Assembly (NCBI GenBank): GCA_025352785.1
Contig: JANXSD010000091.1
Span: 1-33,289, forward strand
DNA length: 33,289 nucleotides
Direction: 5' to 3'
From: Bacteroidota bacterium
GTDB lineage: Bacteria > Bacteroidota > Bacteroidia > AKYH767-A > OLB10
Shown here one piece after another: positions 17,871 to 21,526 of the stretch (its first letter is position 1; every line of letters starts with the position of its first letter). The notes under the pieces are model-generated. The model made no database searches. It worked only from the letters and a program-made list of their open reading frames with translations, and was not told where the DNA came from. The position numbers and the translations under genes are program-made.

Positions 17871-18890
17871 TTACTTTAATCCTGCTAGAAGGTTCTTCAC
17901 TAAGCCAGGCCCTTCATAAATAAAACCAGTATACACTTGAAGTAAATCAGCTCCTGCGTCTAATTTTTCTTGTGCATCCTGCACTGTAAATATCCCTCCT
18001 ACTCCAATAATCACAAGGTTCTTACCAGCCTTTTTCCTCAAATAAGCGATCACAAAAGTGCTTCTATCCTTAACAGGTTTTCCACTTAATCCACCAGCTT
18101 CACTCGTAATTTCACTTTTGGTTTTTAACTTATCACGTGCAATAGTTGTATTCGTTGCGATAATGCCGTCCAACTTTTCTGATAACACAATCTCAACAAT
18201 TTCATCTAACTGCTCATTCGTTAAATCGGGAGCTATTTTCAACAGTAAGGGGCGTGGTTTGGGCATCGATTGATTCAATACTTGAACCTGATGCAATAGA
18301 TTTGTCAGGGGCTCTTTTTCTTGAAGGGCACGCAATCCAGGTGTATTGGGAGAACTCACATTTACTACAAAATAATCCACAACATGATATAATGATTTAT
18401 AACAAAACAGGTAATCGTCAATGGCATTTTCATTTAATGTCAATTTGTTTTTACCAATATTTCCACCAATTATTATTTTACTCTTTCGCTTTTTAAGATG
18501 GTCTGCGGCAGCTTCAACTCCTGCATTATTAAATCCCATTCGGTTGATCAAGCCATTATCAGCAGGTAACCGAAACATCCTTGGTTTCAAATTTCCTTCT
18601 TGCTGAATAGGAGTTACAGTTCCGATTTCTATAAACCCAAATCCAAAGGCAGAAAGCTCATCAACCAATTTAGCATCCTTATCAAATCCAGCAGCTAATC
18701 CAATTGGATTCGGAAATCGTAAACCCATTAACTCCCTTTCAAATGAGCTATTTTTATCGTTAAATAACCAATTGAAAACACTTTTTACTCCTGGAATCAG
18801 GAAGGAGAATTTAATCAAATCAAAGGTAAAATGATGAGCTTTTTCAGGATTCATCAAAAATAAGAGTGGGCGAATAATCAACTTGTACAT
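17871..18890 (-). CDS. pyrD: Dihydroorotate dehydrogenase (quinone), class 2
   Basis: This enzyme oxidises dihydroorotate to orotate in pyrimidine synthesis and passes electrons to the membrane quinone pool. The 339-residue protein has the class 2 N-terminal helix ([20 protein letters not shown]) that binds quinone and membrane. It also has the FMN barrel motifs [45 protein letters not shown] with the catalytic Ser, IIATNTT, and the C-terminal GVGGI phosphate site. Length matches the E. coli enzyme. The gene is divergent from the metal regulator; its TATTTTCG element lies 6 nt before the ATG, and one copy of a candidate operator (18924-18931) falls at its -33 position. Confidence 0.96.
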
Positions 18891-18896
18891 TAACAG

Positions 18897-18904
18897 CGAA
18901 AATA
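18897..18904 (-). promoter_or_regulatory. -7 promoter element of pyrD
   Basis: On the minus strand TATTTTCG (18904-18897) lies 6 nt upstream of the pyrD ATG at 18890. It is one base from TAnnTTTG. Confidence 0.4.
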
Positions 18905-18923
18905 GTAATTAATATCATTTCAT

Positions 18924-18953
18924 TAATCTAATCATATTTTTAGACTAATCTAA
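18924..18953 (+). promoter_or_regulatory. Candidate DtxR/MntR-type operator
   Basis: TTAGACTAATCTAA (18940-18953) is a palindrome with 5-bp arms TTAGA/TCTAA and a 4-bp centre, similar to half-sites of the DtxR/IdeR box (TTAG...CTAA). TAATCTAA occurs twice, at 18924-18931 and 18946-18953, exactly 22 bp apart, so both face the same side of the helix. The palindrome sits just upstream of the TATATTTG element of the regulator gene, where bound protein would block transcription. Confidence 0.5.
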
Positions 18954-18962
18954 ATTATTTTT

Positions 18963-18970
18963 TATATTTG
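18963..18970 (+). promoter_or_regulatory. -7 promoter element of the metal-regulator operon
   Basis: TATATTTG matches TAnnTTTG, 17 nt upstream of the ATG at 18988. The candidate operator lies immediately upstream. Confidence 0.5.
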
Positions 18971-18987
18971 CTTCATAATTTCAATTC

Positions 18988-19653
18988 ATGCATACGGAAA
19001 CGGAAGAAAATTATTTAAAAGCTATCTATCATTTATCAGCAAAAAGGGCTGAGCCAGTGAATACGTCTTCTATTGCAGGATCATTGTCAACGACCTCTGC
19101 ATCTGTTACTGATATGTTGAAAAAATTAGCTGAAAAGAATTTGATAGAATATGAACGCTATCGTGGTGTACGAATCACTCGTAAGGGTGAAAAAATTGCA
19201 ATCAATATCGTAAGGAAACATCGTTTATGGGAAGTATTTCTAACACAAACATTAAAATTCAGATGGGATGAAGTTCATAGCATGGCAGAAGAATTAGAAC
19301 ATGTGAGCTCGGATGAATTAATAAAACGCCTCGAAGAATATTTAGGCTTTCCACGTTTTGATCCACATGGTGATCCAATTCCCGATTTAACAGGGAAAAT
19401 TTCAGCACCTAGTAGTTTATGTTTAGCAAGTGGTGAATGTGAAAAGCGATACACACTTACTGGAGTCAATGATCATTCCGTTTCATTTTTGCAATACCTA
19501 GAACGAACTGGTTTAAAGCCCGGAATTACAGTACGTATATTAGAAATACAAGAGTATGACCACAGCATGCTTATAGAATTAAAAAACAAAATTAAGTTGA
19601 GTATTAGTAATGATGTTGCGAAAAATATTTTAGTGAAAAATTATGGGGAATAA
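18988..19653 (+). CDS. DtxR/MntR family metal-dependent regulator with FeoA domain
   Basis: This is a 221-residue repressor. Residues 1-65 form the winged helix (TETEENYLKAIYHLS, SSIAGSLSTTSASVTDMLKKL, RGVRITRKGEKIA). The metal-binding/dimerisation domain follows, including HRLWEVFLTQTL, EELEHVSSDELIKRLEEYLGFPRFDPHGDPIPD with the His/Glu/Asp ligands typical of the family. A C-terminal FeoA-like SH3 domain (about 150-221, FLQYLERTGLKPGITVRILEI) closes the protein. It should sense Mn or Fe and repress uptake genes when metal is plentiful. It overlaps the Nramp gene by 11 bp, which strongly implies the transporter is its target. Metal specificity (MntR-like or IdeR-like) cannot be settled by eye; the three-domain form is IdeR/DtxR-like. 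Confidence 0.92.
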   Translation: MHTETEENYLKAIYHLSAKRAEPVNTSSIAGSLSTTSASVTDMLKKLAEKNLIEYERYRGVRITRKGEKIAINIVRKHRLWEVFLTQTLKFRWDEVHSMAEELEHVSSDELIKRLEEYLGFPRFDPHGDPIPDLTGKISAPSSLCLASGECEKRYTLTGVNDHSVSFLQYLERTGLKPGITVRILEIQEYDHSMLIELKNKIKLSISNDVAKNILVKNYGE

Positions 19654-21526
19654 ATTAACGAATCCACTTTCACTTTCAGAAGTTCATGGAACCATTCATA
19701 TAGATGGTAAAATGAGTTTTCGGAAACGACTACTTGCATTTTTAGGCCCGGCTTATTTAGTGAGCGTTGGCTATATGGACCCAGGAAATTGGGCTACTGA
19801 TATTGCTGGAGGAAGTCAGTTTGGATACAAACTTATTTGGGTATTGATGATGTCGAATTTAATGGCATTATTATTACAAAGTTTAAGTGCGCGATTAGGT
19901 ATTGTTCGTGGTCGTGATTTGGCTCAGGTATCAAGAGAAATGTATCCTCGAGGCGTCAATTATTTTTTATATGCATTAGCAGAAATCGCCATTGCAGCTT
20001 GTGATCTTGCAGAAGTTTTAGGGATGGCAATTGGATTAAATTTATTATTCGATATTCCACTTTTATGGGGAGTATTATTTTGCGCACTTGATACCTTTAT
20101 TTTACTTTTCTTATTACAATATGGTATTCGAAAAATGGAGGCATTTATTATTAGTCTCGTTGCACTAATTGGATTTGCCTTTATTGCTCAAATGTTTTTA
20201 GCGAAGCCATCATTTCACGAAATATTAGGTGGATTTATTCCTGTATTGCCCAATTCTGCTGCATTATATATCGCCATTGGAATAATTGGTGCTACCGTAA
20301 TGCCACATAATTTATATCTCCATTCTGCATTGGTTCAAACAAGAAAGATTGAACGTATTCCTACAGAAATTCGCCGGGCAATAAAATTCAATATTCTTGA
20401 TAGTTCGATAGCGCTTAACTTAGCATTTTTTGTTAACGCTGCAATTTTAATTTTAGCTGCCAGTACATTTTATCGAAATGGATTATTTGGAGTAGCGGAT
20501 ATCATGGATGCACATCGTTTATTAGAACCTTTATTAGGTTCGAAATTGGCTCCTGCATTATTTGCAATTGCACTTTTATGCTCCGGTCAAAGTTCTACGA
20601 TAACGGGAACTTTAGCAGGACAAATTATCATGGAAGGATATTTAAATTTGCGAATTGCACCATGGCTAAGAAGAATTATCACACGGTCATTTGCCATCAT
20701 TCCAGCAATGCTCGTGATTTATTATTTAGGCGAACATGCTATTGGAAGTTTATTGATATTAAGTCAAGTAATTTTAAGTTTACAATTAGGATTTGCAGTA
20801 ATTCCGTTAATCCATTTTGTAAGCGATAAAGCTAAAATGGGAGAGTTTGTAATTCCTACTTATGTTAAAATTTTAGCATGGTTATGTGCATTGGTGATTG
20901 TTAGTTTAAACGTTAAATTAGTGTACCAACAAATCCTCATATGGACTTCAGGGGCTGAATCTAATCCGTGGGTTGTGTATTTAGTAATTCCAATAATTTT
21001 CATTAGTTGCTTAATGTTAATTTACATTAGTTTGTTTCCTTATTTTAATAAAGTTGCGTTTCGAACTACTCCAATTCCTCATGGCAAATTTCAACAAATT
21101 GCAAATTTGGAATTGAAGTCATACCATCGAATTGCAATCGCATTAGATTTCTCGGAAAAAGATGAATTAGTTATCAAGAATGCACTTACTCAAGGTGGAA
21201 AAAATGCAAATTATTTGTTGATGCATGTAACAGAAACCGCTGGTGCTTTTTTTCTTGGCAACGATACAATGGATTATGAAAGTCAAGTGGATCAAGAAAA
21301 TTTGTTGTATTACATCAAAAACTTAATTTCATTAGGATACCAATGTGAATCTGAAATTGGATATGGTAGTCCGAAAAAGGTATTGCCTGAAATGGTGAAT
21401 AAATTCCAAGCTGATTTATTAATTATGGGAGCACACGGACATAAAGTTATTAAAGATGTAATATTTGGAGCAACTATCGATGCAGTACGTCATAAAGTGA
21501 AGATTCCTGTATTTATTGTTCGATAA
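19643..21526 (+). CDS. Nramp divalent metal transporter with C-terminal USP domain
   Basis: This 627-residue fusion has an N-terminal Nramp (MntH) transporter, about residues 25-460, with the metal-binding helix 1 motif MDPGNWATDIAGGS and the helix 6 motif GATVMPHNLYLHSALV. It imports Mn2+ or Fe2+ with protons. After the last helix a universal stress protein domain (about residues 490-627) begins YHRIAIALDFSEKDE and ends with GAHGHKVIKDVIFGATID. The latter fits the G-x2-G-x9-G nucleotide-binding signature of ATP-binding USPs except that Ala follows the last Gly. MntH proteins are usually about 410-450 residues, so the cytoplasmic USP tail is extra and may regulate transport. The ATG overlaps the regulator gene by 11 bp. 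A domain fusion of this kind occurs in other Bacteroidota to my knowledge. Confidence 0.92.
   Translation: MGNKLTNPLSLSEVHGTIHIDGKMSFRKRLLAFLGPAYLVSVGYMDPGNWATDIAGGSQFGYKLIWVLMMSNLMALLLQSLSARLGIVRGRDLAQVSREMYPRGVNYFLYALAEIAIAACDLAEVLGMAIGLNLLFDIPLLWGVLFCALDTFILLFLLQYGIRKMEAFIISLVALIGFAFIAQMFLAKPSFHEILGGFIPVLPNSAALYIAIGIIGATVMPHNLYLHSALVQTRKIERIPTEIRRAIKFNILDSSIALNLAFFVNAAILILAASTFYRNGLFGVADIMDAHRLLEPLLGSKLAPALFAIALLCSGQSSTITGTLAGQIIMEGYLNLRIAPWLRRIITRSFAIIPAMLVIYYLGEHAIGSLLILSQVILSLQLGFAVIPLIHFVSDKAKMGEFVIPTYVKILAWLCALVIVSLNVKLVYQQILIWTSGAESNPWVVYLVIPIIFISCLMLIYISLFPYFNKVAFRTTPIPHGKFQQIANLELKSYHRIAIALDFSEKDELVIKNALTQGGKNANYLLMHVTETAGAFFLGNDTMDYESQVDQENLLYYIKNLISLGYQCESEIGYGSPKKVLPEMVNKFQADLLIMGAHGHKVIKDVIFGATIDAVRHKVKIPVFIVR

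Follow-up and report, generated by a model that had tools for sequence, protein, structure and literature searches.

The 97-bp region (A+T 82%) between pyrD and a DtxR/MntR-family regulator gene contains a palindrome that, from its conservation across related loci, is very probably the operator of the adjacent regulator. We assign a probability of about 0.82 to a fuller reading of these sequence comparisons, in which the regulator would repress an operon comprising its own gene and an Nramp transporter gene in a metal-dependent manner, through cooperative dimers bound at sites 22 bp apart, with pyrD likely a bystander. The relevant features of the window, by which we mean the whole 33,289-nucleotide stretch analysed, are:

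17871-18890, minus strand: pyrD (dihydroorotate dehydrogenase), the divergent neighbour; start codon at 18888-18890
18897-18904, minus strand: candidate pyrD -7 element TATTTTCG, weak and identified by eye
18918-18931, unstranded: weak upstream site, exactly 22 bp from the main site; proximal half TAATCTAA at 18924-18931
18937-18956, unstranded: main predicted operator, the 20-bp quasi-palindrome TTTTTAGACTAATCTAAATT; core TTAGACTAATCTAA at 18940-18953
18962-18975, unstranded: possible third weak site at +22, top of its flank; it overlaps the -7-like element, and AT-rich promoter letters contribute to its score
18963-18970, plus strand: -7-like element TATATTTG of the regulator promoter, pattern TAnnTTTG
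18988-19653, plus strand: DtxR/MntR-family metal-dependent regulator, 221 aa, with HTH, metal-binding/dimerisation and C-terminal FeoA domains
19643-21526, plus strand: Nramp (MntH-type) metal transporter with a C-terminal Usp domain; its start overlaps the regulator 3′ end

The regulator and Nramp genes very probably form a single operon, because the 3′ end of the first overlaps the start of the second. The universal-stress-protein domain at the C-terminus of the transporter is matched in a number of relatives too. The pattern of TATATTTG is presumably that of a Bacteroidota -7 element. The core TTAGACTAATCTAA lies just 5′ of this element, where the sequence-only reading had placed it, and the likeness to DtxR/IdeR half-sites that was claimed for it holds exactly at the level of geometry, since the single-dimer IdeR consensus TTAGGNNNNCCTAA also has the form TTAG-N6-CTAA (PMC8464063).

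Taken on its own, without comparison, the palindrome is unremarkable. TTAG-N6-CTAA occurs once in the window against 0.65 expected, TTTAGRNNNNYCTAAA is found in three places in the organism's own genome compared with four for the reversed control, motif counts in the window or genome alone are about at or below control, and a loose form of the pattern is not enriched in that genome. The significance of the palindrome derives instead from comparison across loci.

The comparison covered 110 loci with a regulator homologue (30 plus 80, the 80 being the most similar regulators retained, Bacteroidota by title); the set was picked by similarity to the window protein, and two of its members, L040 and L041, are repeats of L011 and L013. 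TTAG-N6-CTAA lies within about 250 nt upstream of the regulator in 83 of the 110 loci. De-replication to 94 loci removed 16 that had less than 200 nt upstream or shared at least 70% identity over 100 nt with a retained one. In this reduced set, 67 loci carry the motif within 200 nt, whereas 100 dinucleotide shuffles averaged 0.55 such loci and never exceeded 2; searching 200 nt of regulator coding sequence instead gave none of the 94, and the stretch at -1400 to -1200 gave three. This phylogenetic footprint strongly supports the predicted autoregulation of the regulator-Nramp operon. Among half-site spacings from 0 to 12, only N6 (67 loci) and N1 (25 loci) stand out, and the N1 peak at least largely reflects an inner CTAA or TTAG of N6 sites. 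In the 68 loci used for the spacing analysis below, an inner CTAA at +5 is found in 12 and an inner TTAG at +5 in 11; the window carries the inner CTAA. The consensus across loci is ATTTTTAGACTAATCTAAAAAT.

In 17 of the 27 loci that lack the canonical form, a site within 1.5 kb outscores the best of 77 coding controls. In L015 and L024 such a site is followed after about 30-40 bp by a 263-265 aa ORF overlapping the regulator start; in L051, L058 and L074 the gap is about 50-60 bp and the ORF, 332-334 aa long, lies upstream of the regulator. In these five loci the site precedes the upstream ORF and therefore heads the presumed operon. The last three loci are from Pontibacter, with the site more than 1.1 kb before the regulator and an ORF judged by eye to be similar to a FabH-type ketoacyl synthase. 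No good site was found within 1.5 kb in 10 of the 110 loci, one of which has no upstream sequence and another only 350 nt. An Nramp gene adjoins the regulator in 63 of the 110 loci, being co-directional and downstream in 46 (canonical site in 38) and divergent in 17 (canonical site in 16); within the fetched stretch, no Nramp match was found beside the regulator in the other 47, of which 29 have a canonical site. Operator-like palindromes are also located inside the regulator coding sequence of three relatives (G007:C173:761-776, G002:C36:41381-41396 and G010:C196:10584-10599), and these may be chance occurrences.

An operator model built from 47 sites of other Bacteroidota loci (L042-L119) ranks the window site as the best match in the whole of its own genome (22 bits, E 8.3e-4), the next match having an E value of only 0.076. 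The regulon in this genome consequently looks, from the model ranking, like one operon. The next model matches, on contigs C131, C196 and C51, are not recognisably beside metal genes when judged by eye. A larger regulon in this genome was considered and rejected, the two other exact palindromes lying, again by eye, in a TetR-like ORF and by the 3′ end of a GyrB-like gene.

The sequence-only reading also described a helically phased operator pair, with a second TAATCTAA 22 bp upstream of the first. That copy is present at 18924-18931, in register with the same letters in the main site, and the 22-bp spacing stands; a second full operator does not, since the upstream element is a half-site only (TTTCATTAATCTAA as a 14-mer). 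Under a stricter matrix the main site scores 27.1 and the -22 site -3.5, which places the latter 49th in the window, while with the operator matrix it falls in the top 0.4% of its locus flank. When the 97-bp intergenic region was shuffled 20000 times by mononucleotides, two copies of TAATCTAA, on either strand, arose in 6 of the shuffles, for a pattern that was chosen after it had been seen.

Helical phasing at 22 bp, two turns of the helix, recurs across Bacteroidota. Flanks were scored in 68 loci; the other 26 of the 94 lack a canonical site within 260 nt and were excluded. Among all offsets up to 100 bp to each side, -22 and +22 score best, and 21 and 23 are clearly lower on both sides. Mean scores at -22 and +22 are -15.1 and -16.2, compared with -31.4 and -32.3 (sd 1.1 and 1.2) for flanks permuted in place, so that both signals are about 14 sd above the permuted flanks; the best of 200 permutations reached -27.8 and -28.9. 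A site in the top 5% of the flank is found at -22, +22 or both in 57 of the 68 loci. The signals persist (z 5.4-8.5) in the 26 loci with less than 60% regulator identity, in the 14 with less than 55%, and when scoring is limited to the 14-bp core. Exact half-site letters recur as well: CTAA in the -22 register in 13 of the 68 loci (background 0.51) and TTAG at +22 in 6 (background 0.34). In L096 there are two identical copies of TTAAACTAATCTAA exactly 22 bp apart, 85 and 107 bases before the regulator start. Among 14 other loci of the same family, one (L013) has an exact CTAA in the -22 register, and the rest have at most a degenerate -22 site. The layout is thus one of a strong site with one or more weaker neighbours at 22 bp, as in SloR-type systems; further repeats at 44 or 66 bp were sought in the 68 loci, and only a faint signal at +44 was seen.

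Controls were drawn from 48 palindromes, of which 15 are at the regulator, 1 is at a binding-protein gene in G007 and 32 are elsewhere. Of these 32, 29 served as controls, two repeats of one G012 sequence and a G009 site beside pyrD/Nramp being left out; long open frames hold the majority of the 29, the regulator gene itself holds 3, and L255 may be a genuine site. The -22 signal is absent from these same-pattern palindromes, with offset -22 ranking 81st of 162. At +22 the controls rank 3rd of 162 (score -31.8), and an AT-rich subset of 12 ranks 2nd (-27.0), compared with -16.2 for the real loci. The -22 signal is therefore clean and the +22 signal less so, because control palindromes rank high at +22 but not at -22.

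The position of the array relative to the promoter falls mainly into two classes. Measured from the start of the main site, a TAnnTTTG element begins at 16-25 bases in 31 of the 68 loci (median 22) and at 38-48 bases in 21 (median 41), the remaining 16 being unassigned. Where the -7 element is near, the better flank is -22; where it is far, the better flank is +22. In both classes, the -33 region would be covered by one of the sites in the array.

The regulator has the SloR-like DtxR/MntR domain set (HTH, metal-binding/dimerisation and FeoA/SH3-like domains), with matches above cut-off to Pfam Fe_dep_repress, Fe_dep_repr_C and FeoA, and it aligns nearly full length with SloR (over its own residues 3-217) and ScaR (4-217). 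Metal-ligand positions E104 and H105 are kept in all 110 homologues and E101 in 108. The DtxR ligand Cys102 presumably corresponds to Glu in the window regulator, based on alignment by eye. Asn8 is present in 110 of 110 homologues, a set chosen by likeness to the window protein, where SloR has an Asp metal ligand. Because this replacement extends to all 110 regulators, the metal specificity is uncertain, and that of the Asn8 subfamily may differ from SloR's. The position of SloR F187 is aromatic in 109 of the 110.

Binding, the identity of the metal, repression, and cooperativity with its FeoA basis are elements that we infer in the following model. Mn2+ and/or Fe2+ would load the regulator, whose dimer would then bind TTAG-N6-CTAA. 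The bound dimer would cover the -33/spacer region of the promoter and block regulator-Nramp transcription, which would create a negative feedback loop on metal import. The -22 half-site, and perhaps the weaker downstream one too, lies on the same helix face and would take a second dimer cooperatively, which would sharpen the response to metal. The cooperativity would probably come from FeoA-FeoA contacts between dimers, as reported for SloR (PMC12096823), and the FeoA domain would thereby set the 22-bp register.

The closest parallel is SloR at mntH of S. mutans, where an 18-bp site (SRE1) over the -35 is accompanied by a weaker SRE2 4 bp upstream, and binding is described as cooperative (PMC12096823). 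SRE2 is printed there with 17 letters in the running text but with 18 in a legend; by our arithmetic, two 18-bp sites 4 bp apart have a spacing of 22 bp. The cooperativity is ascribed in that report to FeoA contacts that include F187, with data not shown (PMC12096823). Both systems thus have an FeoA-bearing DtxR-family regulator with a strong promoter site and a weaker site 22 bp away. They differ in their half-sites, which are TTAG/CTAA for the array predicted here and TTTTAA/TTAACA for SloR, in the Bacteroidota-type promoter and in the Asn that replaces Asp in the metal site. The TTAG-N6-CTAA dimer unit is shared with the IdeR/DtxR box; however, the usual box, 19 bp long, is occupied by two dimers on opposite faces (PMC8464063), whereas the recurrent second site here is 22 bp away, on about the same helix face. 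For B. subtilis MntR at mneP, neighbouring sites for a dimer array, as we predict here, have been reported, with 18-bp sites 1 bp apart, i.e., a 19-bp spacing, and cooperative binding (PMC11275975). That protein is described as lacking the SH3-like domain (PMC2628430), and at mneP it activates efflux (PMC11275975), unlike the repression of uptake proposed here. A further parallel is PgMntR of Porphyromonas gingivalis, a Bacteroidota DtxR-family Mn regulator which binds the promoter region of its own operon, shared with a Mn transporter, on a 385-bp fragment (PMC4805248). PgMntR differs in having two FeoA domains, Asp19 and Cys108 in the metal site, and FB2 as the transporter; the main text of that paper contains no word that starts with operator or palindrom (PMC4805248). 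A search of the open-licence literature found no operator for Bacteroidota MntR-type regulators, and a search with the literal sequence gave only the IdeR paper.

There are alternative explanations for the 22-bp signal. A single regulator dimer might bind the main palindrome only, with the conservation of the flanks reflecting AT-rich promoter features such as a UP-like element, the -33 and the -7. We consider this unlikely, while noting that in the window the partner is far weaker than the main site, that the +22 site overlaps the -7 element in 31 of the 68 loci, that the control palindromes also rank high at +22, and that repression of mntH and mntA by B. subtilis MntR is reported to involve 1:1 complexes (PMC11275975). 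Against it, the peak is at exactly 22 on both sides with 21 and 23 clearly lower, the flank letters are those of the half-sites, CTAA and TTAG, beyond mere A/T, and L096 has a full tandem duplicate. Furthermore, in the 21 loci with a far -7 element the -22 site is well upstream of the regulator promoter and still scores about 6 sd above permuted flanks, although several of these loci have a divergent Nramp gene whose promoter may reach the -22 site. Another possibility, that the palindrome arose as an AT-rich match by chance while the regulator works at some other place, would agree with a pattern no commoner than controls in the window or genome alone, but it is highly improbable given the conservation at 67 of 94 loci and the first rank of the site under a model trained on other loci.

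The remaining question is whether pyrD is a target or a bystander. An operator pair could form a bidirectional metal-responsive promoter that controls pyrD too, and metal-dependent control of pyrD had been raised in the sequence-only reading, which put the second element at the pyrD -33. The element is indeed near -33 of the candidate -7 element, itself weak and chosen by eye, and the site there is a weak half-site. The divergent pyrD-regulator arrangement recurs, and in L015 and L231 pyrD is 75 bp from the site while the regulator is about 880 bp away; the L015 site, however, is accounted for by the co-directional ORF that overlaps the regulator start. A pyrD survey took 50 of 56 genomes with a match and could assess 48 loci, neighbours being judged within the fetched stretch. 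Where pyrD is divergent from a DtxR homologue (17 of 48 loci), a strong site is present in 17 of 17 (score at least 15.7), and where it is divergent from Nramp alone (4 of 48), the scores are 15.6, 10.0, 4.3 and 1.9. When neither neighbour is in the fetched stretch, 26 of 27 loci score 1.6 or less, the exception being L214, with 566 bp to the contig edge. The distance from site to pyrD start is also inconstant, ranging from about 60 to more than 200 bp. Joint control of both directions is accordingly a quite improbable reading: membership of pyrD in the regulon is rejected, and its metal-dependent control is not supported as a selected function. Most likely pyrD is a bystander neighbour; in the window's own genome pyrD may still be affected incidentally, because the weak -22 site overlaps the probable pyrD -33 region.

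The regulator family, the dimer unit and cooperative binding at neighbouring sites are already known. Beyond these, we tentatively suggest, with somewhat less than even confidence, that FeoA-bearing MntR proteins of Bacteroidota use a strong site and flanking weak sites held in a fixed 22-bp register by FeoA-FeoA contacts; that the promoter takes one of two positions about 20 bp apart, with a site of the array over -33 in both; and that an Asn-bearing metal site provides a Mn/Fe readout for mntH and, in some relatives, for ABC importers and TonB receptors. With a sequence-level operator in hand for the MntR-type regulators of Bacteroidota, their Mn/Fe regulons would become predictable, and it would allow a comparative test of dimer spacing in the DtxR family, 22 bp for FeoA-bearing SloR-like proteins vs 19 bp for B. 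subtilis MntR at mneP.

The 47-site model has matches (E at most 0.05) in the genomes of 37 of 61 relatives, most of them at the regulator itself. Eight matches away from both regulator and pyrD were examined (L184, L187, L188, L189, L194, L200, L209 and L212), and four other off-regulator matches were left out (G057:C1, G021:C71, G038:C1:1449705 and G044:C74). Three of the eight precede genes for ZnuA-type binding proteins/ABC transporters, two lie before genes for TonB-dependent receptors, one (L187) before a di-haem oxidoreductase gene, and two are inside ORFs (L200 and L212); six of the eight, all except L187 and L212, have a site at -22 or +22 that ranks in the top 1.2% of the flank. The site in L187, a strong operator-like sequence near position 1501, would hint at a wider metal or peroxide control.

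Finally, we note that the window's own genome (G000) contains a 164-bp repeat (L158:1487-1650) that partly matches its own reverse strand and has several copies at contig ends. It occurs in at least 40 places with 88-100% identity (40 of 122 candidates scored). The sequence TTAGTCTAATCTAC, which is close to the operator, is found 10 times in this genome, including within the repeat, and the repeat is perhaps a MITE-like element that spreads operator-like sites.
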